In this document: positions 2 through 27,954 of the stretch, one piece after another
How positions within the stretch are numbered: the stretch's first letter is position 1
How the letters are laid out: each line of letters begins with the position of its first letter
Assembly: GCA_003598085.1 (NCBI GenBank)
Contig: QZKU01000014.1
Location: forward strand, 1-27,954
Length of the DNA: 27,954 nucleotides
Reading direction: 5' to 3'
Source: Candidatus Abyssobacteria bacterium SURF_5
GTDB taxonomy: Bacteria; Abyssobacteria; SURF-5
The notes under the pieces: generated by a model
Databases searched by the model: none
What the model was told of the DNA's origin: nothing
What the model saw: only the letters and a program-made list of their open reading frames with translations
Made by a program: the position numbers and the translations under genes

Positions 2-613
2 CCGATTGCCGAATTCGCTTATGATCTGAATGGGAACCTCACGAGTCGAACCACCGCCGCGGGAACCACCGCGATGGAATACGACTACGAGAACCGGCTT
101 GTCCGGATCACGTACCCGAGTAACAGCGGAACCACGGAATTCGTGTACGACGCATTGGGACGGAGACTGAAGACCACCGAGAAGGACGGACTCGGCCAGA
201 TAACCGGCGAGATGCATTATGCGTACGACGGGCTCGATCTTATCGCCGAGCTTGACGCCAGCGATTCACTGATTGCCGGCTTCACGCACGGGCCGGAAAT
301 TGATGATCCGCTGATCGCGCGGTATGATGGCGCTGATTACCTGTATCTGAAGAATCATCAGGGGAGCGTAACCGAGCTGATCACCTTCAACGGCGCGATT
401 GCCAAAAGCTACCGGTACGATGCCTTCGGCAACATCAAGCAGGAGACCACGCGCCGCGCGTGGCTTCACCTACACCTCGCGCGAGCGCCATGCCCGCTCC
501 GGCCTCTACTACTACCGCGCCCGCTGGTACTCGCCCGACCTGGGCCGCTTCATCACCACCGACCCCATCGGTTATCTCGGGGGCGTGAATTTGTATGCGT
601 ACGTGGAAAATGA
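2..613 (+). CDS. RHS/YD-repeat protein, C-terminal core fragment (left edge cut, frameshifted)
   Basis: The frame is open from the left edge, so the ATG at 74 is internal and the true start lies outside the window. The visible product carries YD-repeat signatures (AYDLNGNLTSR, YDYENRL, FVYDALGRRLK) and then the RHS-associated core segment (YLKNHQGSVTELI, SYRYDAFGNIKQET). RHS proteins form a large beta-cocoon shell that encloses a variable C-terminal toxin. At about 455-470 the reading slips: the expected continuation (GFTYTSRE, GLYYYRARWYSPDLGRF) is in the +1 frame, so the last ~48 codons of this frame are out-of-frame nonsense ending at 613. Rejoining the frames needs one surplus base removed or two restored. 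Family assignment is firm. Whether the gene is dead, mis-sequenced or expressed in two pieces is not resolved. Confidence 0.85.
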   Translation, partial: PIAEFAYDLNGNLTSRTTAAGTTAMEYDYENRLVRITYPSNSGTTEFVYDALGRRLKTTEKDGLGQITGEMHYAYDGLDLIAELDASDSLIAGFTHGPEIDDPLIARYDGADYLYLKNHQGSVTELITFNGAIAKSYRYDAFGNIKQETTRRAWLHLHLARAPCPLRPLLLPRPLVLARPGPLHHHRPHRLSRGREFVCVRGK

Positions 614-1052
614 TCCGGTGAATTGGAATGATCCGTTAGGACTTTCCGGAATCGCGAGATTAACTCCCGGTACTGGAGGATTAGTGGCTCCGGCGGCTCC
701 CCCAGGTGTCAATGTCGAGGAAAACCTAATCGAAGCAGGAAGCAACGGAATCTCCTTTTGGATTAATCACGTCAAGAAAGGGGGAAAATGGGATTATAAA
801 CAGTTAGGCTTTGAGAAATATGAAAATTTCGGTAACTATAACTATGGATTTACAGGAAAACAATTTTGGCCAGAAGGTTTATTGCTCAGAGCTGCTGGCT
901 TTGTCCAGGAAGAGAGCGATCCTGCGTGGGGGCACTGGTGGGGAGGACCTCCTTACGGTGATGATCCCAAGGATCAATTATATATTCAACTAGGTATAAT
1001 CGACTATGAGAGAAGAAAAAATTGTCCCGAAGGCGATAAAGAAGAGGATTAA
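399..1052 (+). CDS. RHS core end plus C-terminal polymorphic toxin (type 44-like)
   Basis: This frame continues the RHS core after the frameshift. Real homology begins near 465 (GFTYTSRE), followed by GLYYYRARWYSPDLGRFITT, DPIGYLGG, NLYAYVENDPVNWNDPLGL, the usual end of an RHS core before the toxin. The first ~22 codons (from 399) are the shadow of the other frame. After DPLGL comes a ~140-residue variable tail containing WINHVKKGGKWDYKQ, NFGNYNYGFTGKQF, LLLRAAGFVQEE and PYGDDPKDQLYIQLGI. This pattern matches my recollection of the polymorphic toxin type 44 (Ntox44) family; no search was run and I assert no catalytic residues. The tail is visibly more AT-rich than the core, typical of an exchanged toxin module. 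The next gene starts 3 bases after the stop, the usual place for an immunity gene. Confidence 0.75.
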   Translation: MPKATGTMPSATSSRRPRAARGFTYTSRERHARSGLYYYRARWYSPDLGRFITTDPIGYLGGVNLYAYVENDPVNWNDPLGLSGIARLTPGTGGLVAPAAPPGVNVEENLIEAGSNGISFWINHVKKGGKWDYKQLGFEKYENFGNYNYGFTGKQFWPEGLLLRAAGFVQEESDPAWGHWWGGPPYGDDPKDQLYIQLGIIDYERRKNCPEGDKEED

Positions 1053-3611: not shown

Positions 3612-4925
3612 ATGATATTCGGCTTTGAATTGACCGTCATCAGCATAATGCTGGTGTTTAACGCCATATTCGCGGCTTACGAGATGGCGCTTGCATCCGT
3701 GTCGCGGTCGCGCTTGACGGCTCTCCTTCAGGAGAAAAGGAAAGGCGCCCGTGCGGCCGTCTTCATGAAAGACCGCCTGGAGGCAAGCCTGGCCGTTGTT
3801 CAGGTCGGGATCACTCTGGCCGGAGTCATCGCGGCTGCAGCGGGAGGGGCAGGCGTTGAGGAAGTGCTGGCTCCTTATCTGGAGCGTACTCTCGATGTCT
3901 CCGAACGCTTGGCCGAGATACTGGCGCTTGCATGCCTCGCAATCCCATTAAGCAGCTTCACGATTGTCTTTGCCGAACTTGTTCCGAAAGTTTTTGCTCT
4001 CCAGAATAAAGAACTCGTGTGCCTGAAGCTTTCCCCATTCATGAAAGTCTTCTGGCTCATTTTTTATCCCGTCATTTTCGTCTTTGAGTTCGTCGTAAAG
4101 AAAGTCGCCAGCTTGGGTTCTCCGGCGTTGAAAAGCCAGCGAGAGATGAGGGAACACGGTCTTCATGAAATCAGGGCGGCCGTCACCCTGGCGCGCAGTC
4201 TGAGCCTTATCGGCGCACGCGAGGAAAAAATCGTCCTGTCGGCGGCCCAGCTCTCGATGCGTCCGGTCTCGAATGCGGCAATCCCGGCTTCGGAGATATC
4301 CATGCTCGCTTTAACCTCCACGTTGAACGAGGCATTTATTAAAGCGCATCTCGACATGCACACGCGTTTTCCCGTGTCTGAAGCGGAAGACGACCCTCAG
4401 ACCATAGTCGGTTATGTAAATTTCAAGGATATCGCCAATGCAATAAGGATGAACCCTTCGGATCCCACCGTCCGCGGAATCGCGCGGCCTATTGCAAGAT
4501 TCAATGAGAATGTGCCTCTCTCACAGGCGCTCGAACATCTGATTCGCGAAAAAAATCATATCGCTCTTGTTGTGTCAAACGAGAATAAAGTCACCGGTCT
4601 CGTCACTCTCGAGGACATCATGGAGGAACTGGTGGGTGAAATTGAGGATGAATATGACCGGATGCCCTCCTACATTCATCCCTACAGTTCCGGTCTCATC
4701 GCGGGAGGCGGCGCTTCGATGGACGCGATTATGGACAAGCTTGGCAAACAGCCGCAACCGGTCCCTCAAGTAAAGCGCAGCCCGAATCTGCACGAATGGT
4801 GCGTGCAGAAACTCGAGCGCCTGCCGAAAGGCGGAGACGTCATTGAAGGCGAGGGTCTCAGGGTTTCAGTTCGAAAGATGCGCCGCAGAAAGGTATCTGA
4901 AGCGACTGTGAACCAGATCGATTGA
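3612..4925 (+). CDS. CNNM/CBS-domain membrane protein (CorB/CorC, TlyC-like family)
   Basis: This 437-residue protein has the standard architecture of the family. The N-terminal CNNM transmembrane domain covers about residues 5-165, with hydrophobic segments near 5-27, 61-80, 103-122 and 143-162 and the conserved FAELVPK at 120-126. A CBS-domain pair follows (about 215-340; IVGYVNFKDI, HIALVVSNENKVTGLVTLED, ending IMEELVGEIEDEYD), then a C-terminal CorC/HlyC transport-associated domain (about 355-430; GLIAGGGASMDAIMDKLG, GDVIEGEGLRVSVRKM). Relatives are linked to Mg2+ or Co2+ transport and resistance; the older name hemolysin C is misleading. CBS pairs usually bind adenine nucleotides and gate such transporters. 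A TTGACA box lies upstream at 3520 but no good -10 follows, so I call no promoter. No clear Shine-Dalgarno precedes the ATG. Confidence 0.88.
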   Translation: MIFGFELTVISIMLVFNAIFAAYEMALASVSRSRLTALLQEKRKGARAAVFMKDRLEASLAVVQVGITLAGVIAAAAGGAGVEEVLAPYLERTLDVSERLAEILALACLAIPLSSFTIVFAELVPKVFALQNKELVCLKLSPFMKVFWLIFYPVIFVFEFVVKKVASLGSPALKSQREMREHGLHEIRAAVTLARSLSLIGAREEKIVLSAAQLSMRPVSNAAIPASEISMLALTSTLNEAFIKAHLDMHTRFPVSEAEDDPQTIVGYVNFKDIANAIRMNPSDPTVRGIARPIARFNENVPLSQALEHLIREKNHIALVVSNENKVTGLVTLEDIMEELVGEIEDEYDRMPSYIHPYSSGLIAGGGASMDAIMDKLGKQPQPVPQVKRSPNLHEWCVQKLERLPKGGDVIEGEGLRVSVRKMRRRKVSEATVNQID

Positions 4926-5059
4926 AGTGAATTCGGTCAGCCCTTGAAACGCCTTATCCCACCCCACTTGCGCTCTTCTCATTTCTCAATTCTGCGATGT
5001 CGCGACAAATCCTCCCCGTTGACCCCATACATTTTCCCACTTTGAATGCATAATTAAGC

Positions 5060-6004
5060 ATGGTGCGAAGAGCGAAGATCGTGATTATCGGCGCGGGCGC
5101 GGTCGGTTCGACGTTCGCCTACACCTTGGTGCGAGTCGGCCTGTTCGGCGAGATCGTTTTGGTTGACGCGAATCGAGAGCGCGCCGAGGGCGAAGCGATG
5201 GACCTTAATCACGGCCTGTTCTTCGCCCCGCACGTCGAGATTCGATCCGGCGATTACGCCGACTGCGCCGATGCCGCAATTGTCGCGATCACGGCCGGAG
5301 CGAAGCAGAAGCCGGGCGAGTCGCGGCTCGACCTCGTGCAGAGGAACACCGAAATCTGCAAGCAGATCGTTGCCAACATCCTCAAGTATACCCGCGACGC
5401 GATCCTCCTGATGGTCACAAACCCGGTGGATATCCTCACGTATGTGGCGCATAAGGTTTCGGGCCTGCCGGCAAATCGGGTGATCGGGTCGGGCACCGTG
5501 CTCGATAGCGCGCGCTTCCGCTATATGTTGAGCGAACATTGCAACATTGACCCGCGCAACGTGCACGCATACGTCCTCGGCGAGCATGGCGACAGCGAGG
5601 TGGCCGCATGGAGCCTCACCCACATCGGCGGAATCCCGATCCTTCAGTTCTGTTCCGCCTGCGAGATCAACTGCTCGGTCGAAGAGCGGAAACGCATCTC
5701 GGATGCCGTCCGCGATTCGGCCTACCATATTATCGAGTACAAGGGCGCCACAAATTTCGCCGTCAGCCTTGCGCTCGACAATATCGTCGGCGCGATCGTC
5801 CGAGATTCAAACAGTGTTTTGACCGTTTCGATACCGCTGGAGGGACAATTCGGACTGTCGAACGTCGCACTGAGCGTGCCGGCGGTAATCAATCAAAACG
5901 GTGTCAGCCGCATCCTGCAGGCTACCCTCTCCGAGGACGAACTCAAAGGACTGGAGAGATCGGCGGCAGCCTTAAAGAACGTCATCAGCCAGCTCAGTAT
6001 CTAA
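5060..6004 (+). CDS. ldh: L-lactate dehydrogenase
   Basis: This 314-residue enzyme catalyses NADH-dependent pyruvate/L-lactate interconversion in the cytoplasm. It has the Rossmann loop GAGAVGS (11-17) and the acidic cofactor-binding Asp in VLVDAN. The mobile loop AKQKPGESR has Gln83, the position that separates lactate from malate dehydrogenases (Arg in MDH), and Arg89. Also visible are NPVDILTYV (121-129), substrate-binding Arg152 with Asp149 in TVLDSARFR, and the catalytic His176 in LGEHGDSE. DLNHG and the C-terminal half are typical. The Gln in the loop is the reason to prefer LDH over MDH. No neighbouring gene suggests a pathway; it fits fermentative pyruvate disposal. The ATG at 5060 is preceded by AT-rich sequence without a strong ribosome-binding site. 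Confidence 0.93.
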   Translation: MVRRAKIVIIGAGAVGSTFAYTLVRVGLFGEIVLVDANRERAEGEAMDLNHGLFFAPHVEIRSGDYADCADAAIVAITAGAKQKPGESRLDLVQRNTEICKQIVANILKYTRDAILLMVTNPVDILTYVAHKVSGLPANRVIGSGTVLDSARFRYMLSEHCNIDPRNVHAYVLGEHGDSEVAAWSLTHIGGIPILQFCSACEINCSVEERKRISDAVRDSAYHIIEYKGATNFAVSLALDNIVGAIVRDSNSVLTVSIPLEGQFGLSNVALSVPAVINQNGVSRILQATLSEDELKGLERSAAALKNVISQLSI

Positions 6005-19300: not shown

Positions 19301-19329
19301 TTGACAAGCCGGACGGCCTTCCATATAAT
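19301..19329 (+). promoter_or_regulatory. Perfect-consensus sigma70 promoter of the initiator tRNA
   Basis: TTGACA (19301-19306), a 17-base spacer and TATAAT (19324-19329) match the full consensus in both boxes and spacing. Initiation is expected about 5-7 bases beyond the -10 box, at 19335-19337. That coincides with the first bases of the tRNA itself. Confidence 0.9.
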
Positions 19330-19334
19330 GTAGA

Positions 19335-19411
<77 letters not shown>

Positions 19412-19786: not shown

Positions 19787-21493
19787 TCAGGACGTCTTCA
19801 ACTCATGCACGAGCTGCCCTGCCGCAGTGAAAATCCGTCCTCTTCCCTCACTGATCACGCCTTCATAGGATTTGCCATCATCACACCAAAACGAAAGGGA
19901 AACCGTGCTTCCTTTGATGGACATCGCTCCGGAGTTTCTGAGGGTTTTCCCCATTGCGGCCGCCATGCCCTGGCACAGATTATCGATTGTCTTGGGCGTC
20001 ACTACTCGCAGACCCAGCTTTTCAGCGGGTCCCCCTTCAGCTTTGCTTTGTTCGCCTCCAGGCTGAAACGGCGCGATATATGGTTCGCTCCCGATCTTTG
20101 CCCTCGTCTCCTCATATTGCGAGACTTCATTTCTTGACTCCGGGCAATCGGCCGAAGTTGAAATGACTACTTTGATAAGTTTTAGAGGAGGCTCGCTCGC
20201 CAGGTTCTGAGATAATGCGTATCCCGCCTCTCCTTTCGCCTCATCAAGGAGCCCCATTTCATGGAATGCCTGGGCGAGTCGCGCGTGATCGTCACCGTCA
20301 CACTGCCCGATTCGTCCACCTATCCGTACCGCTTCCTCCAAATGCGCCGCTGCGCAGCCTGATTTCTGCAGTCGCATATATGCGATCTCCATATCTTTAT
20401 GGATCTGATAGCGAATACTTTCATCCGGTTCGAAGGCGCAGGCCAAATCGAGTGATTCAATCGCTTTCTCGTACTGTTCGGTTTCCATGCAGCACTTTCC
20501 CAGAAAATACCGGCAATTGAATGTTTCCGGGCCGATGTTGACCGCTTTCTCAAAGTGGCCGATGGCCTCTTCAAAATCTCCTTTTCTCCCATACACGATG
20601 CCGATGTTAGTGTGCGCTTCCGCATATTCAGGATTGATACGGATCGCATTCTGGTAGAGCGATATCGCCTTGTCCCATTGAACGGGGTCCGCCTGATTCT
20701 GGCACGCCACCCCATAATTGAAGTGTATCTCGGGATCATTCGGCGATATTCGCAAAGCCTGCTCATAGAAGCTGCATGCTTCGAAGAACTGCCCATTTAC
20801 GTCGAGCTGATTGGCGAGCACCATCTTTTCGCGAGCCGGATTTTTGCCGCCTCCACGGGAAATGACCGTCATTGTCTCGTCCGCAAATCCCCTGATGGTC
20901 GCCTCGAGAATCTCGCAAACGTCAGACGGCAGATCAAATGTTCGCATGGCCTCCTCGACGACTGCGACCGCCTTCCTGCTATCTCCCAACTTGTAGTATG
21001 CGGCGCCCAGACAGCTTATGCACAGGCCCAGTCTCTGCGGTTCGACGTCCTGATTCTGCAATGCGCATTCAAGCGCCTTTTTGTAATAAGCTGTCGCATG
21101 ATCGAATTCATCCCGCCGCATTCGGAGCCGCGCAAGATTGTAGTGCAGGTCGTAGTCGTTGGGGTACGTCTTCATTTGCCATTGCAACAGTTCGAGCGCC
21201 TTGTCGTCATGGTTGAAGTCGGTAAGCACACAAGCCAGATTATTGACGTGCCGGCTGGCGATGCGCCTGACTTCAGAATCGGTCCATAATTCTTCCACCT
21301 TCCCTTCCCTCGCTGATGTTTCCGCTTTCCAAAATTTGGAGAGCGACCCATCATAATCCTCTGTGTCGAAGAGAAAGATGCTCTGGTTTAGCGCATCGAC
21401 CGTGTGTTGGCGCGCAGCGTCGGGCGAAGTTGCTGTGCCGCGGCTCGCGCGCAGAGAATGTATCTTGCTCAACAGGTTGTTGAGAACATTCAT
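19787..21493 (-). CDS. TPR-repeat protein of the kinase/phosphatase cluster
   Basis: This 568-residue protein from the ATG at 21493 is supported by GAGGAGGTG 6 bases upstream; a longer frame to 21565 lacks such a site. The middle consists of tetratricopeptide repeats: YDLHYNLARLRMRRDEFDHA, AAYYKKALECAL, LGAAYYKLGDSRKAV, FFEACSFYEQALRISPNDPE, IHFNYGVACQ, SLYQNAIRINPEYAEAHTNI, DFEEAIGHFEKAVNIGPETF, YEKAIESLDLACAFEPDES. TPR arrays are protein-binding scaffolds. The last ~110 residues form a separate, non-TPR domain that I do not recognise. There is no signal peptide or membrane segment, so it is likely cytoplasmic. It lies 87 bases downstream of the zinc-ribbon gene, last in the signalling operon, and probably assembles or presents kinase substrates (inference). 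Confidence 0.85.
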   Translation of the reverse strand: MNVLNNLLSKIHSLRASRGTATSPDAARQHTVDALNQSIFLFDTEDYDGSLSKFWKAETSAREGKVEELWTDSEVRRIASRHVNNLACVLTDFNHDDKALELLQWQMKTYPNDYDLHYNLARLRMRRDEFDHATAYYKKALECALQNQDVEPQRLGLCISCLGAAYYKLGDSRKAVAVVEEAMRTFDLPSDVCEILEATIRGFADETMTVISRGGGKNPAREKMVLANQLDVNGQFFEACSFYEQALRISPNDPEIHFNYGVACQNQADPVQWDKAISLYQNAIRINPEYAEAHTNIGIVYGRKGDFEEAIGHFEKAVNIGPETFNCRYFLGKCCMETEQYEKAIESLDLACAFEPDESIRYQIHKDMEIAYMRLQKSGCAAAHLEEAVRIGGRIGQCDGDDHARLAQAFHEMGLLDEAKGEAGYALSQNLASEPPLKLIKVVISTSADCPESRNEVSQYEETRAKIGSEPYIAPFQPGGEQSKAEGGPAEKLGLRVVTPKTIDNLCQGMAAAMGKTLRNSGAMSIKGSTVSLSFWCDDGKSYEGVISEGRGRIFTAAGQLVHELKTS

Positions 21494-21580
21494 GATTAAC
21501 ACCTCCTCATATTCGTCCAACGAACGGCGTCGCTGATTCTCGCCGGAACATGTTTCGGGTCTCAAAAGGAGCGCTCGCGA

Positions 21581-21865
21581 TTATTTCCCCTTTTTCATGA
21601 AGAACGAACTGATGTCGAAGAGAAATCTCTCGTGCCGGCCACACTCTTTGCAGACAACGGATAACTCATCGCAGAAGACGCCGTTGACTGCCAGCATTGT
21701 CTGCATGTCATACCTGAAAGCCCCTCCGCACGAACATCTCGAGCGGCTTGCGTAGATGTATTCCTCGAGAACAGAGTTTACCTGAATCGCTTGCGGACCG
21801 GCGTTGCAGGCAGGACATACGTATACACTTTCCGGCAGTTCTCTTTCACAGCTTTTACATTTCAT
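21581..21865 (-). CDS. Small zinc-ribbon protein
   Basis: This 94-residue protein has an N-terminal zinc ribbon MKCKSCERELPESVYVCPAC (two CxxC knuckles) and further cysteines in RSRCSCGGAF and VVCKECGRHE that could form a second metal site. Such ribbons mediate protein or nucleic-acid contacts. The start codon overlaps the end of the PP2C gene by four bases (ATGA-type), so expression is coupled to the phosphatase. The same kind of ribbon is built into the neighbouring FHA-kinase, suggesting a shared interaction surface. Function is unknown. Confidence 0.75.
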   Translation of the reverse strand: MKCKSCERELPESVYVCPACNAGPQAIQVNSVLEEYIYASRSRCSCGGAFRYDMQTMLAVNGVFCDELSVVCKECGRHERFLFDISSFFMKKGK

Positions 21866-22686
21866 CTTTTTTTTCTTCTGTGGCCGTCGCTTTCGCTGAA
21901 ACGCGCCACTTCGATTCCAGGTTCTTCTTTAAGAGCGGCTTTTTCCTCTGCAATTGCAATAACGATAATGGTCACATTATCTTTTCCGCCGGCTTCGTTC
22001 GCCGCTGCAATCAATCGCGTGCAGGCGGCGCCGGGTTTGGCCTCATCAGCCAAGATCGCCTTTATTCCCTCATCGGCCAGCATTTCCGTGAGGCCGTCGG
22101 AACACAGCAGGATGCGGTCGTCTCTCCGGACGGAGAACGTATGAATGTCCGGCAAAGGCTCGCCTTCCATTCCGACGTACCGGGTAAGCTGTCCGCGCGC
22201 CGGATGTGAATCCGCCTCCTTCTCGGTGATATCTCCCGACTCCAGAAGAAGCTGGATGATAGTGTGGTCTCGGGTCAATTTTCTGAGCCTGCTGTTCCGG
22301 AACAGATAGGCGCGGCTGTCGCCCATATGAGCAACAAAGGCCGTCGATGCGCGGAGGAGCACGAAAACTACTGTAGATCCCATGCCGGTCAGATCGGGTC
22401 TTTCTTCGCTTCCGTCGCGAAGGCTATTGCTAAAATTGGCCAACAGCTTGTACAGGATACCTGCAGTTTTCCTGCTCGACATATCCAAATGATCAGGTAA
22501 CTCGCTCCTTACGAAATATGGGAGCGCCTCAACGACTATTTTTGAGGCGACCGCTCCACCCAAGTGCCCGCCCATCCCGTCAGCGACCAGGTACAGTCCG
22601 ATGTCCGGATCCGCATACCAGGCGTCTTCGTTTTCGCGTCGAACACATCCGAGATCGGTCAGTCCCGCATGGGTTACCGTCAGCAT
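21862..22686 (-). CDS. PP2C-family Ser/Thr protein phosphatase
   Basis: This 274-residue metal-dependent phosphatase carries every PP2C motif: VRRENEDAWY, LVADGMGGHLGG, GMGSTVV, FVAHMGDSRAYLF, LTRDHT, LLCSDGLTEML and GGKDNVTIIVI. These supply the acidic residues that bind the catalytic Mn/Mg ions. It resembles the PrpC/Stp group that reverses the action of PASTA-type and other Hanks kinases. There is no membrane segment; the C-terminal ~30 residues are charged and variable. Its start overlaps the kinase stop by a single base (TGATG), and its end overlaps the zinc-ribbon gene, so it belongs to one operon with both kinases and is the likely antagonist. Confidence 0.94.
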   Translation of the reverse strand: MLTVTHAGLTDLGCVRRENEDAWYADPDIGLYLVADGMGGHLGGAVASKIVVEALPYFVRSELPDHLDMSSRKTAGILYKLLANFSNSLRDGSEERPDLTGMGSTVVFVLLRASTAFVAHMGDSRAYLFRNSRLRKLTRDHTIIQLLLESGDITEKEADSHPARGQLTRYVGMEGEPLPDIHTFSVRRDDRILLCSDGLTEMLADEGIKAILADEAKPGAACTRLIAAANEAGGKDNVTIIVIAIAEEKAALKEEPGIEVARFSESDGHRRKKR

Positions 22687-24221
22687 CAGAGCGCTCCCTC
22701 CAGAGCTCGTTTGAAGGCCGCGGCCGATTTGAAGCCGATCACCGGCCTGTCAACAAGGGCTTTGTCAATGACCGCAGCAAGCTTTTTGGGAATATCCGGA
22801 TTGCGTTCACGAATAGGAGCGGCGTCCTGGCTCAGGACTGCACGCCACACGTCTTCGCCTCTCGAGAAGTCGCGGGGGAATACTCCCGTCCCGCACACCA
22901 TATTATACAGACAGGCTGCAACGGCCCAGACGTCCACTTCCGGTTTTGCGTGTTTGAAGTTGACCACCTGTTGGCGCGGTACGAAGCAGGGAGTTCCTCC
23001 TATCGTACCCGTTAATGTCTGTCCGCTGAGGCCCGCCGCATCGAATGCTTTTGCAAGGCCGAAATCGCCGATCTTCACCGTCCACGAATTCTCAGAGCCA
23101 GCCAGAAAAATGTTGCCCGGCTTGATATCTCTGTGCACCAGCCCTTTTTTCTCGACATATTTTCCGTCGGCAAGTTTGGCGCGGACTTCAACGTTGTGCG
23201 CGTACTCGAGCCCGTCGAGAGCCTGCAGCGTTATTGAACATGCTTCATCGATCGAGAGTCTGCCTCCGCGCTGTTCCATCAGTTTGTCGATACTGCCGCG
23301 GTCGCAATATTCGAGTGTGAAGAAGAAGACTCCGTCGGCGTATCCCGACTCGAAGAACCTGACGATGTGCGGGTGATTCAAGCTCTTCATGAGTTCGGTC
23401 TCACGGAGGAAATATTCTTTCAGCTCCGGCTTCACGGCCACTTGCGGAAGCAGGAGTTTCAAGGCGACGATCTGCTCGGTTTTTGTATTGCGCGCGAGGT
23501 AGACGCCGCCCATGCCTCCGCGCCCGATCTCACGGGTCAGCGCGTAGTCCGCTAGGCCCCGGAGTTCCTGTCTGCCCTGATTTCCTCCGTGCAGGAGAGC
23601 CTTCACCAGCGCGTTCAACTCGGATTTCTTGCAGGACAGGCAAATATAGTCGCCCTGCCGGTTTTTTCCGATCTCCTTCGAGACGTCTTTCCCGCATCTG
23701 GCGCACACGTGCTTGCGAGGCGCAAGAGGTTTCTTCTCCTTCGCCGCCTTCAGTTGCTTCCAGCACGCGTCGCACACAAACAGGTTGGGCGCCCGCCTGC
23801 AATTTTCCTTTTTCTTCTCATCGATTTCTCGAGAGCATTCATTGCAGAGAACAGGCGCAAAGACACCAACCTGGAAGACGGTACGCCCGAGCCTGATCTT
23901 GTCTCCCTCTTTGAGGTCGTACTCAGGAAAGTTCACTTTGGCGCCTTCTTCCGGCGTCTGGTTTTTCTCGCGGCCTCCTATCTTCCTGCCGTTCACAAAC
24001 GTGCCGTTCAGGCTTCCGAAATCGCGGACGCGGATGTCGGGAGGATTGATATCCAGCAGGCAGTGGTGCCGCGAAATGATCTTGTGTTCCTGGTCGTTGG
24101 GCAACTGCGGCGAGCATTCATCCGCGCGTCCCATAATACACGAGGTTCTCTCCGCAAATTCATAGTTTTGGCCGGTAAGTTTTCCTTCTGTTACTGTCAG
24201 CGTAACCTTCGCTGGCATCAT
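22686..24221 (-). CDS. FHA - zinc ribbon - Ser/Thr protein kinase
   Basis: This 511-residue Hanks-type kinase has an unusual order of domains. FHA phosphopeptide reader at about 5-120 (GR at 31-32, SRHH at 50-53, LNGTFVNG at 71-78); two cysteine pairs of zinc-ribbon type (Cys126/129 with 150/153; Cys173/176 with 194/197); kinase at about 226-505. Kinase residues: GRGGMGGV loop (233-240), Lys255, Glu274 or 276, HRDIKPGN (363-370), DFG (386-388). The activation segment reads GGTPCFVPRQQ, so the usual APE Glu is Arg. No transmembrane helix, so it is cytoplasmic. AGGAGG ends 2 bases before the first ATG (24221) and 5 before the second (24218), which may be the true start. It follows the WD40 kinase and overlaps the PP2C gene. 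Confidence 0.92.
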   Translation of the reverse strand: MMPAKVTLTVTEGKLTGQNYEFAERTSCIMGRADECSPQLPNDQEHKIISRHHCLLDINPPDIRVRDFGSLNGTFVNGRKIGGREKNQTPEEGAKVNFPEYDLKEGDKIRLGRTVFQVGVFAPVLCNECSREIDEKKKENCRRAPNLFVCDACWKQLKAAKEKKPLAPRKHVCARCGKDVSKEIGKNRQGDYICLSCKKSELNALVKALLHGGNQGRQELRGLADYALTREIGRGGMGGVYLARNTKTEQIVALKLLLPQVAVKPELKEYFLRETELMKSLNHPHIVRFFESGYADGVFFFTLEYCDRGSIDKLMEQRGGRLSIDEACSITLQALDGLEYAHNVEVRAKLADGKYVEKKGLVHRDIKPGNIFLAGSENSWTVKIGDFGLAKAFDAAGLSGQTLTGTIGGTPCFVPRQQVVNFKHAKPEVDVWAVAACLYNMVCGTGVFPRDFSRGEDVWRAVLSQDAAPIRERNPDIPKKLAAVIDKALVDRPVIGFKSAAAFKRALEGAL

Positions 24222-24290
24222 TTCCTCCTTTGCGACAGCCAGTCTTCCTGAAGCTTTATGGAAATTTGTTCTTCTTAGCAGACGCGCCTG

Positions 24291-27200
24291 TCATTTCCCT
24301 TCCGGCAGAGGCGGTGGCCCGTCCCAGTCGGCAGCCATTTCTTCAAGCTTTCTTCGCACGCCATCGGGCCTGAGCCAGCCGTAGCCGCAATAGCTCAGGC
24401 GCGTCAGGAGCTTCTGAAAATCTTCTTCGTTCCATGAGGGTTTGCCGCGACGGGTCAGAGCGCGTGTGATTTGGTCATGGGTTGGTTCTCGTTCTCCCGG
24501 CAATTCGGCGGCATACGGCGTGTGGAGAGTCAGGAATTTTTCGAGATATGGTTTTGCGTCATCATACCAATCTGCTGGATTGGGAAACTCATAGTTCCAC
24601 ACTAGTTCCCACAGCCGGAGAGTCTTGTCCTTTGATCCCGAGAGTGCGAAGCGGCCATCAAGAGAACAGGCTACAGAAGTCACGCGGCCTTTGTGGCTCT
24701 TGAACGTGCGTAGACATTGCCCGCTGTTGATGTCCCACAACCGAACACTCTTGTCCTCTGATCCGGAGAGCACGAAACGACCATCGGAAGAATAGGCCAG
24801 AGAATTCACATTACAAATCTCCCCTTTGAAGGTGCGCAGACATTCTCCGCCGATGATATCCCACAGCCGAAGAGTCCTGTCCTTTGATCCCGAGAGCGCA
24901 AAGCGGCCATCCGGAGAAATGGCGACAGGACTCACAACTTCGAGCATGCGCAGGCATTGCCACGTATCCATATTCCACACCTGAAGAGTTTTATCCCCCG
25001 CCGAGAGCACGAAACGGCCATCCGGAGAAAACGCAACAAACTTGACAGGCTCTGTGAATCGATTGAGGTATCGCAGAGAGTTGTTGACCAGCTTTTGTCC
25101 GCTGTTGACATCCAGTACCCGAATGCTTCCGTCCTGTGATCCCGAGAGCGCAAAACGGCCGTCCGGAGAAAATGCGACAGAAGTCAAATTATCTGTGTGC
25201 CCCTGAAATAAGCGCAGGCACTCCCCACTCCTGATCTCCCAGAGCCGAAGAACGTAATCGTCCGATCCCGAAAGTGCGAAACGGTCATCCGGAGAAAACG
25301 CGACAGAACGCACCTCCCGTCTGTGTTCGATTGTGCGCAGGCATTTTCCCGTGTTCATCTCCCACAGCCGGAGATCGCAGTCGTCTGATCCCGAGAGTGC
25401 GAAGCGGCCATCTGGAGAAATGGCGACAGAAGACACAGAGGCTGTGTGTCCTTCAAATGTGCGCAGATGCCAGCCTTGAGCATATCTGCGAATCCTTCCA
25501 CGTAGGCCTGCTTTAGCCCTCAAGTCCAGAAGTTCCCGCGACCTCAAATATCCAGGAACAGAGGCGGCCTTCGAAATAGCGTCAGAAGCTCCGGCAGGAT
25601 TCCCTGCTTTCAGTTCTGCTTTTGCGGTTGAAAAAAGATCATGCACCTTGCTCTTATATTCAATAAGAGCGGAAATAGATACGGCTTTGCACAGTATCGA
25701 TCTTCCTTGCGAGACGCCAGCAAAAATATTCCAGAGCCGAAGGTTATTGTCTCCTGATCCCGAGATCGCGAAACGGCCGTCCGGAGAATAGGCCACAGAT
25801 GTTACAGATCTGATGTGTCCTTCAAATGTGCGCAGGCATCGGCCCGTGGAGATCTCCCACAGCCGGAGACTGGAGTCGTATGATCCCGAGAGTGCGAAGC
25901 GGCCATCTGGAGAAATGGCGACAGAAGACACAGAGCTTGTGTGTCCTTCCAATGTGCGCAGGCATCGGCCCGTGGAGATCTCCCACAGCCGGAGACCGCA
26001 GTCGTCTGATCCCGAGAGCGCGAAACGGCCGTCCGGAGAATAGGCCACAGATGTTACAGATCTGGTGTGTCCTTCCAATGTGCGCAGGCATCGGCCCGTG
26101 GAGATCTCCCACAGCCGGAGAGTCTTGTCTTTTGATCCCGAGAGTGCAAAACGACCGTCCGGAGAACAAGCGACAGAAAACACAGAGCTTGTATGCCCTT
26201 CGAATGTGCGCAGGCATTTTCGCCTATTGATCTTCCAGAGTCGAGCAGTATTGTCGTCTGATCCCGAGAGTGCGAAGCGGCCGTCCGGAGAAAAGGCCAC
26301 AGAATTCACATTACGAATCTGCCCTTTGAAGGTGCGCAGGCATTTCCCGCTGTTGATATCCCACAGCTGAAGCAGAAGACTTCTGTTAGTGGATCCCGAG
26401 GACCTAAGACGGCCATCCCCGCGGTCAATGTCCCACAGCTGAAGCGGAACAGCACTTGCACTGGATCCCGAGAGTGCGAAGCGGCCGTCTGGAGAAATGG
26501 CGACGGATTCCACTTCCCCTGTGTGTCCTTCGAATGTACGCAGACATTTCCCGCTGTTGATATCCCACAGCTGAAGAGTCTTATCGGATGACCCAGTAAT
26601 CGCGAAGCGTCCATCTGCAGAAATGGCGACAGAAGAAGAGCATGAGCATCCATCGAACGTGCGCTGGCGGGACGAATCCATCATACGAGCCTGTTCAAGG
26701 GCCGCAAGGACTTTTCGATTTTGACTGGAGATCTCTGCAATCTCCTCCAACACCTTCACGGCGGACCCCCCGTCACCTCGTTCCATATGAACTAGTCCCA
26801 AGCAATACTCATCCATCCAGTCAGATTCATGGCTAAACCGGAGTTCCTCCATGCGTTCTACAACTTCCTGATCAGTGATCTCTGCTTTGTGCCACTGTCG
26901 CAGGCTAAACCCGTACGTCGATTCGGCATGATGCGGGTCAATTTTCAGCGCCTCTTCCCAAAGCTTTTCGGCTTCGTCCGCCTTGCCCAGTTCGAGAAGC
27001 GAGGTAGCCTTGTTGTTCAAGACATCAGCCATCTCTGCAAGTTGTTTTGGCTCTTCCCTGGCATAGTCATGTCGTGTCTCCTTTCCATAGATCGCCTTGA
27101 GGCTTTCGATCACATCAGACATCGATTTCGGCCGTTCGTCAGGATTCTCCTGCAGACACTTGGCGATGAGAGCCGCAAGAGATTCGGGCATTGGGGGCAG

Positions 27201-27954
27201 ATGCCCTTCGGCGGGACCGGTCCTGAGGTATTCACTGAAGACTTCGCCCACCACCGTCCCCGACGGCCAGGTGACGCCGCCGTTGAAAATCTCGAAGATG
27301 GATACCGCCCAGGAGTAGAGGTCGGACTGCGGAGTTATCCGGACTACATCCTTTTTGGGGACTCCGGCCGCGCGCTGGGCATGGGCCTGCGCCTGCTCGG
27401 GAGAAGCGTACAGCGGTGTCATGCCGGCAAACGTGCGGTCGACTGAAGCAGTCTGCTCAGGTTGAACTCCCTTCGGCAGTTCCAATGCCGCGCCTGCCAG
27501 TCCGAAGTCGCTCATCTTGGCGATTCCGTCAGAAGTTATGAGAACATTGGCCGGCTTGACGTCCTGATGCACCATTCCGCGGGAGTGGGCATATTCAAGA
27601 CCCCGGGCAAACTGAATGGCAATATCGAGGATGTGTTCGATCACATCCTCAGGGCTGCCCTCATATATCTTGCCGGTCTTGATCCAGTCTGAGACCGTTC
27701 CGCCTTCGACGTATTCGGCAAAAACGCGAGGGACCTTTCCCAAGACGCGCACAAAATGGCAGGTGACTATGTTCTCGTGCAGCCCGAGGTCCATCCAGGT
27801 ATGGCATTCACGGACAAAACTCTCTACGCCGCCGGCTCCTGCAATGGCCTTCTCGTTCGGCGTCTTGACCGCCATATCCATATCCCAGTCAAGATGATGG
27901 ACTTTGTAGACTTTTCCGTAGCCACCTTCGCCAAGAACATCCCTAATTTCGTAG
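24291..27954 (-). CDS. Ser/Thr protein kinase with TPR-like segment and two WD40 propellers (right edge cut)
   Basis: The frame is open to the window edge: upstream of the ATG at 27881 it reads YEIRDVLGEGGYGKVYKVH, the kinase glycine loop, so the gene starts outside the window. About 1,220 residues are visible. The kinase (27954 to about 27080) has AVK lysine, VHQDVKPANVLI (HQD in place of HRD), DFGLA and ASPEQ, all consistent with activity. A short TPR-like stretch follows (AEKLWEEALKIDPHHAESTY). Then come fourteen WD40 repeats in two sets of seven, separated by a helical insert at about 25470-25715. A C-terminal domain of about 90 residues (DAKPYLEKFLTLHTPYAAEL, GYGWLRPDGVRRKLEEMAA) closes the protein. 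WD40 propellers bind partner proteins and probably select targets. No membrane segment is seen. Confidence 0.9.
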   Translation of the reverse strand, partial: YEIRDVLGEGGYGKVYKVHHLDWDMDMAVKTPNEKAIAGAGGVESFVRECHTWMDLGLHENIVTCHFVRVLGKVPRVFAEYVEGGTVSDWIKTGKIYEGSPEDVIEHILDIAIQFARGLEYAHSRGMVHQDVKPANVLITSDGIAKMSDFGLAGAALELPKGVQPEQTASVDRTFAGMTPLYASPEQAQAHAQRAAGVPKKDVVRITPQSDLYSWAVSIFEIFNGGVTWPSGTVVGEVFSEYLRTGPAEGHLPPMPESLAALIAKCLQENPDERPKSMSDVIESLKAIYGKETRHDYAREEPKQLAEMADVLNNKATSLLELGKADEAEKLWEEALKIDPHHAESTYGFSLRQWHKAEITDQEVVERMEELRFSHESDWMDEYCLGLVHMERGDGGSAVKVLEEIAEISSQNRKVLAALEQARMMDSSRQRTFDGCSCSSSVAISADGRFAITGSSDKTLQLWDINSGKCLRTFEGHTGEVESVAISPDGRFALSGSSASAVPLQLWDIDRGDGRLRSSGSTNRSLLLQLWDINSGKCLRTFKGQIRNVNSVAFSPDGRFALSGSDDNTARLWKINRRKCLRTFEGHTSSVFSVACSPDGRFALSGSKDKTLRLWEISTGRCLRTLEGHTRSVTSVAYSPDGRFALSGSDDCGLRLWEISTGRCLRTLEGHTSSVSSVAISPDGRFALSGSYDSSLRLWEISTGRCLRTFEGHIRSVTSVAYSPDGRFAISGSGDNNLRLWNIFAGVSQGRSILCKAVSISALIEYKSKVHDLFSTAKAELKAGNPAGASDAISKAASVPGYLRSRELLDLRAKAGLRGRIRRYAQGWHLRTFEGHTASVSSVAISPDGRFALSGSDDCDLRLWEMNTGKCLRTIEHRREVRSVAFSPDDRFALSGSDDYVLRLWEIRSGECLRLFQGHTDNLTSVAFSPDGRFALSGSQDGSIRVLDVNSGQKLVNNSLRYLNRFTEPVKFVAFSPDGRFVLSAGDKTLQVWNMDTWQCLRMLEVVSPVAISPDGRFALSGSKDRTLRLWDIIGGECLRTFKGEICNVNSLAYSSDGRFVLSGSEDKSVRLWDINSGQCLRTFKSHKGRVTSVACSLDGRFALSGSKDKTLRLWELVWNYEFPNPADWYDDAKPYLEKFLTLHTPYAAELPGEREPTHDQITRALTRRGKPSWNEEDFQKLLTRLSYCGYGWLRPDGVRRKLEEMAADWDGPPPLPEGK
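24605..26655 (-). repeat. 126-base tandem repeats encoding WD40 blades
   Basis: The WD40 region is built from 42-codon (126-base) units with consensus SVAxSPDGRFALSGSxD then LRLWEI and CLRTFEGH. The period is exact where units are most alike: the segment beginning AATGTGCGCAGG recurs at 25825, 25951, 26077 and 26203, and a variant at 26329. Units between 25825 and 26200 are nearly identical in DNA, indicating recent duplication or gene conversion; outer units are more diverged. One shortened unit lies near 26380-26460. The helical insert at about 25470-25715 interrupts the array between blades 7 and 8. Confidence 0.88.

Follow-up and report, generated by a model that had tools for sequence, protein, structure and literature searches.

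Three adjacent genes on this contig form a unit that is conserved across phyla: they encode a Ser/Thr kinase with two WD40 propellers (WD40K), a kinase with an FHA domain and zinc ribbons (FHAK), and a phosphatase of the PP2C family. Under the model proposed here, to which a probability of roughly 0.6 is assigned, these proteins would act as a conserved cytoplasmic phosphorylation unit with a lineage-specific output. Bacterial Ser/Thr kinases are numerous, though few have known partners, and this trio, found from Nitrospinota to Planctomycetota, with its kinases also neighbours in actinobacteria and joined into one protein in some cyanobacteria, offers a defined and testable partner set.

Gene layout of the source contig

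The window, i.e. the whole stretch of DNA analysed (27,954 nt), is the complete contig C14 of a 5.1 Mb assembly that is 98.5% complete. Its features of interest are the following, in the direction of transcription:

24291..27954, minus strand: WD40K, Ser/Thr kinase with two WD40 propellers; 5' end lost, open at the contig end
22686..24221, minus strand: FHAK, FHA-zinc-ribbon-kinase (Pfam FHA and kinase); about 45-56% full-length identity in many phyla
21862..22686, minus strand: PP2C, Stp1/IreP-type Ser/Thr phosphatase (Pfam; NCBIfam NF033484)
21581..21865, minus strand: 94-aa Cys-rich protein, probable zinc ribbon (paired cysteines read by eye)
19787..21493, minus strand: TPR-repeat protein (Pfam TPR), with its ATG at 21493

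The original prediction of five co-directional genes, three of them with overlapping ends, agrees with this layout: all five are present on the minus strand, FHAK and PP2C overlap by 1 nt, and PP2C and the gene of the 94-aa protein by 4 nt. The intergenic gaps are 69 nt between WD40K and FHAK and 87 nt between the zinc-ribbon and TPR genes, and AAAGGAGG precedes the FHAK start; expression as one operon is plausible. As for the TPR gene, the longest version of its reading frame begins with a TTG at 21565; the ATG at 21493 is preceded by GAGGAGG, and the predicted start moves to this ATG. The claim that no product has a membrane segment also held, the highest 19-residue hydropathy being 1.53 in the five proteins, with the N-terminus of WD40K missing. 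Regarding the named gene products, Pfam confirmed the WD40 kinase, the FHA-kinase, the PP2C and the TPR protein; the zinc ribbon remains a cysteine pattern only.

A tRNA-Met gene on the opposite strand lies between the five genes and a block of genes for housekeeping and metabolism; this tRNA (anticodon CAT, 19335-19411, plus strand) lies right behind a perfect TTGACA-17-TATAAT promoter (region 19301-19411). At the other end of the window (2-1052, plus strand), an RHS-repeat reading frame runs off the left contig end and is overlapped by one whose product has a bacterial toxin 44 (Ntox44) domain; the two mark the end of what is probably a polymorphic toxin gene.

The WD40 kinase

WD40K has the arrangement of a PkwA-type WD40 kinase, in that a single protein carries a Ser/Thr kinase domain followed by WD40 repeats: the repeats matched Pfam WD40 with an E-value of 2e-157, and the kinase domain matched with 2e-36, a value measured on the equivalent segment of a paralogue. 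In the part present, the kinase (residues 1 to ~280) is followed by a TPR-like linker (~300-420), then by two WD40 propellers with a helical insert between them, and at the C-terminus by a helical domain (residues ~1117-1220, nt ~24294-24605). For this last domain the fold model was helical and confident (pLDDT 90); it had no match in Pfam or NCBIfam, and Foldseek returned nothing below an E-value of 0.6. The yeast MATalpha2/MCM1 complex, its best VIA match with a Z of 5.3, was rejected, this score being in the range of common helical arrangements. With two propellers and a C-terminal domain of no named family, WD40K is, judging from its architecture, itself a scaffold.

The residues of the ATP and metal sites are intact in a family alignment of 18 members, with the motifs HQD and DFG; because HQD takes the place of HRD in most of these proteins, their activity may be low or differently controlled. 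In other species, the homologues have a CxxC...CxxC zinc ribbon at their start, for which the Pfam match is weak; in the protein of the window, the corresponding N-terminal ribbon would fall past the contig end.

The first 99 nt of the WD40K gene at the contig end are identical to the start of another contig of the same genome, C82, so both contigs break in a common stretch, and no third contig of the genome carries it. C82 encodes a second WD40K, with 83.6% nucleotide identity over the first 1183 nt. At this locus (L074, 2-5115) the second WD40 kinase is followed by a 173-aa reading frame and a stray WD40K C-terminal fragment (4420-5115), which look like traces of a duplication.

FHAK and PP2C

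FHAK matched Pfam FHA (E 6e-14; 23967-24137) and kinase (E 5e-41; 22698-23546), and it carries two Cys4 zinc ribbons: the second, at 23631-23705, is invariant in seven members, and the first is not. Both functional parts keep their key residues, namely Lys, HRD, Asn and Asp in the kinase, and Arg, Ser and Asn at the FHA site.

As for PP2C, it matched its Pfam family with an E-value of 4e-14, and it barely passed as Stp1/IreP-type, with 230.3 bits against a cut-off of 230 for NCBIfam NF033484; the metal-site residues D36, D197 and D236, together with G37, are invariant in 16 of 16 members.

Linkage of the three genes across phyla

In the window the three genes are adjacent, WD40K has its C-terminal domain, and FHAK has the order FHA-zinc ribbon-kinase. 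The first relatives came from a PP2C search, which led to a Nitrospinota assembly (G064) with adjacent genes for FHAK (53% identity over 512 aa), PP2C (50%) and WD40K (36% over 1233 aa); the order FHAK-PP2C-WD40K is shared by this assembly and four more Nitrospinota loci. A query of contigs with a single FHAK gave no match, and a query with an FHAK alignment did find relatives. An FHAK profile from seven members returned 135 related GTDB stretches, and among the best 80 of these 135, which were analysed, FHAK relatives occur in Planctomycetota, Acidobacteria, Verrucomicrobia, Nitrospirae (including Magnetominusculus), Syntrophobacteraceae, a gammaproteobacterium, cyanobacteria and actinobacteria.

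The locus set, drawing on the best 80 of 135, numbered 83 after de-duplication, window included; it was scored with profiles run on stop-to-stop frames, which keeps the ORF caller from biasing the count. Linkage meant a PP2C within 250 nt downstream of FHAK and, for the WD40K-type kinase, a gene no more than 5 kb away in the same orientation. Outside the cyanobacteria and actinobacteria, with the window excluded, PP2C lies directly downstream in 19 of 22 FHAK loci (20/23 with the window), a WD40K-type kinase is nearby on the same strand in 17 (18/23), and both are present in 15 of the 22, counts that are lower bounds, since several loci are cut by contig ends, and that do not represent independent events, since some genomes are related. 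Many of the relatives are MAG fragments. One locus counted as positive for WD40K, L076, has a kinase without the diagnostic C-terminus. The linked loci span Nitrospinota, Nitrospirota, Desulfobacterota, Planctomycetota and others; within the two groups set aside, WD40K is on the same strand as FHAK in 12 of 22 actinobacterial and 6 of 38 cyanobacterial loci.

The gene order of the window, WD40K-FHAK-PP2C, recurs in L085 and L106, a Planctomycetota and a Gammaproteobacteria MAG, with WD40K cut by the contig end; other orders are WD40K-FHAK in actinobacteria, and FHAK-PP2C-WD40K in Nitrospinota, Nitrospirota and Syntrophobacteraceae. A search led by WD40K in 386 genomes found six with a full-type WD40K outside the set used to build the query, and in four of the six, which represent three genera, its neighbours include an FHA-kinase and a PP2C. 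Here Pfam confirmed the kinases of G122, G259 and G288 and the PP2C of G122; the labels in G386 and the other PP2C labels come from the profiles of this analysis.

Two Symploca MAGs encode WD40K and FHAK as a single fused protein, in one continuous reading frame of 1732-1733 aa; combined with the linkage, this fusion speaks for joint action of the two kinases. The tree distances of FHAK are correlated with those of WD40K (r 0.82, 27 loci) and of PP2C (r 0.83, 13 loci), which is weak evidence alone, because such values are expected from co-inheritance and in part reflect the common history of the species. FHAK is probably able to work alone, as most of its cyanobacterial representatives and many actinobacterial ones have neither WD40K nor PP2C nearby. 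Two genomes of the same family as the source had no FHAK and no WD40K at the cut-offs used.

The conserved unit is therefore made of three genes and not five. The co-occurrence foreseen for the whole set was found for WD40K, FHAK and PP2C, and a conserved set of five was rejected, because the zinc-ribbon and TPR genes are near no other FHAK in the loci checked. This lack of conservation, in a genome rich in kinases (27 matches to the WD40K query), is what one would expect of a coincidental cluster of common signalling genes with no joint function; such a reading is very improbable for three of the five genes, however, since these specific subfamilies are repeatedly adjacent across many phyla and in several orders, and the two kinases can be fused.

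The Cys-rich and TPR proteins

The 94-aa protein had no Pfam family match, and its fold model from the single sequence was poor (pLDDT 50); its zinc-ribbon label rests on the cysteine pattern, because the pairs were read by eye and the model is of this quality. The TPR protein matched Pfam TPR with an E-value of 7e-29. Both are almost without relatives among 290 genomes, and from these comparisons their genes are local additions, outside the conserved unit; in the window, the two proteins would probably serve as adaptor and scaffold.

One clear relative of the 94-aa protein was observed (L201, on contig C74 of G197, 500-721), with 43% identity and matching residues 25-91. Its gene is directly behind one resembling, by eye, a STAS anti-sigma antagonist. 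STAS proteins belong to another phospho-switch setting.

Proposed mechanism

In the preferred reading, a conserved phosphorylation unit, WD40K would be activated by a signal or partner sensed via its TPR-like and propeller part, and would then phosphorylate Thr/Ser sites of its own and of clients bound to it. The FHA domain of FHAK may dock on these phosphosites, where FHAK would be activated and would spread or maintain the mark; other proteins with FHA domains could dock on the same marks. Finally, PP2C would strip the phosphates and reset the unit. This mechanism is proposed mainly because FHA domains occur not just in FHAK but also in PP2C, cyclases and a HATPase protein encoded on C82, as a docking system would require. 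The output would vary, with AAA+ unfoldases/proteases, FHA-cyclases or an FHA-histidine kinase added in other lineages. The earlier idea of a wholly cytoplasmic switch with its own reader thus survives in part: it fits the soluble kinase/FHA/phosphatase unit with its conserved catalytic residues, and it does not extend to the zinc-ribbon and TPR genes, which are not conserved.

Comparison with known systems

The post-translational switch of type VI secretion, PpkA/Fha/PppA, consists of a kinase, an FHA reader and a PP2C. The trio has the same kinds of parts, and Hsp100 occurs beside some of its relatives, so it could be pictured as a regulatory branch of type VI secretion with the secretion genes elsewhere. 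The trio differs in having two kinases, one with WD40 propellers, and no sheath gene: VipB/TssC was not found in the 98.5% complete genome, in a search that detected the E. coli control, and it is missing in nine of the ten WD40K-bearing genomes tested (source included), being on another contig in the tenth. The original prediction had already set the genes apart from a type VI secretion module, correctly as regards the sheath gene, and a link to this system has a negligible chance of being right for this genome, unless its small missing part contains the sheath gene.

The TerY-P triad is of the kinase/PP2C/vWA kind, and actinobacterial GAP1-N2 conflict systems have a triad of kinase-zinc ribbon, PP2C and vWA (PMC7159879). 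The resemblance to both is an active kinase with a zinc ribbon beside a PP2C; the trio differs in its FHA domain and WD40 kinase, and there was no vWA match among the window proteins scanned, the upstream side of WD40K lying off the contig. A kinase system for anti-phage defence or conflict was considered on two grounds, the match of the kinase domains to several PADLOC kinase models and the filamentous or multicellular nature of many carriers, like that of the conflict systems of PMC7159879. It is improbable, given that the PADLOC matches are limited to the generic kinase domain and that the proteins scanned beside the core included no recognisable nuclease or other effector.

PkwA of Thermomonospora curvata is a WD40 protein kinase (Janda 1996, as cited in PMC5587647), and WD40K likewise has a kinase joined to WD40 repeats; its WD40 part matches the solved PkwA propeller 5yzv with an E-value of 4e-85, and it matches many other WD40 proteins as well. 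Unlike PkwA, it has two propellers, a TPR-like linker and a helical domain at the C-terminus that belongs to no Pfam family, and its gene is linked to FHAK and PP2C. FHAK has the domain pair of the cyanobacterial cbSTKII FHA-kinases, which combine FHA and Ser/Thr kinase in one protein, and its relatives are often cyanobacterial; in the excerpt of the cbSTKII description used here (PMC2176072), the FHA domain is listed, without zinc ribbons, a WD40K partner or PP2C linkage. In cyanobacteria and planctomycetes, WD40 genes are often beside kinase genes, and the portion of PMC5587647 describing these neighbourhoods does not name the FHAK/PP2C trio. The literature searched, chiefly open-access papers without preprints, gave no description of the trio, which apparently is an undescribed combination of familiar parts.

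Neighbouring genes as possible outputs

The genes beside the trio vary by lineage, and two kinds recur as possible outputs, AAA+ unfoldases/proteases and cyclases. Regarding the former, Hsp100/ClpP or Clp-FtsH protease genes are beside the module in five groups, among which is the second WD40K locus of the source genome. There, the second WD40K gene shares C82 with genes for an FHA-HATPase protein and a receiver, for an Hsp100 that has two Walker A motifs and an IGV loop, and for a ClpP with Ser and His motifs; this ClpP is one of two full copies in the genome, the other being on C92. Three actinobacterial genera, Planotetraspora, Catenulispora and Kitasatospora, have a two-module Hsp100 directly adjoining FHAK, Planotetraspora with the layout WD40K-Hsp100-FHAK. 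In MAGs of Desulfobacterota, Acidobacteriota and Verrucomicrobiota, the unit stands beside a fusion of two AAA modules and a peptidase M41, with a Clp_N-like start, a receiver-like stretch mid-protein and HExxH (L084, 15601-19164; L078, 9530-13057; L076, 6847-10323); the two fusions scanned were below every NCBIfam cut-off. No Clp-M41 fusion was found at E<=1e-180 in 386 genomes, a set without a positive control, so that rarity of the fusion is only suggested.

These neighbours raise the possibility of regulated proteolysis, in which the kinases would either tag proteins or switch an adaptor, leaving the tagged ones to be destroyed or remodelled by a dedicated AAA+ unfoldase/protease; in the source genome, this role would fall to the Hsp100 and ClpP whose genes accompany the second WD40K. 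The C82 locus, the AAA-AAA-M41 fusions and the actinobacterial Hsp100 genes speak for this reading, which nevertheless is the less likely one: an unfoldase/protease gene is within 6 kb in only 7 of 83 FHAK loci, one of which (L089) may encode a housekeeping chaperone, the window holds no protease gene and hence no dedicated Clp protease at the same locus, and the link to C82 runs through a paralogue. If these recurrent neighbours are outputs, they would connect Ser/Thr phosphorylation to targeted proteolysis in bacteria. A broader version, quite doubtful at present, is a so far unrecognised cross-phylum platform where proteins marked by the WD40-propeller kinase and the FHA-kinase would go to a dedicated AAA+ protease, either ClpA-like/ClpP or a Clp-FtsH fusion of the soluble kind, with cyclase outputs in other lineages; if true, it would be the counterpart of the eukaryotic phosphorylation-directed degradation by WD40 receptor complexes.

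As for the cyclases, G122 has two class III enzymes with FHA and GAF domains, FHA-GAF-cyclase-PP2C and FHA-GAF-cyclase, and G386 has the same layout; in Nitrospirota a PP2C-FHA protein is followed by a weak cyclase match, and in Nitrospinota a CHASE2-cyclase is behind WD40K.

Finally, two further arrangements were observed beside FHAKs. In some filamentous cyanobacteria (L093, L128, L142, L144) a large gene lies between two FHAK-like genes, and in L128, the one scanned, it has a Band_7/SPFH domain; in five loci (L094, L105, L111, L151, L154) small genes belonging to a single cluster lie beside cyanobacterial FHAKs, the copy in L094 being a XisI protein.
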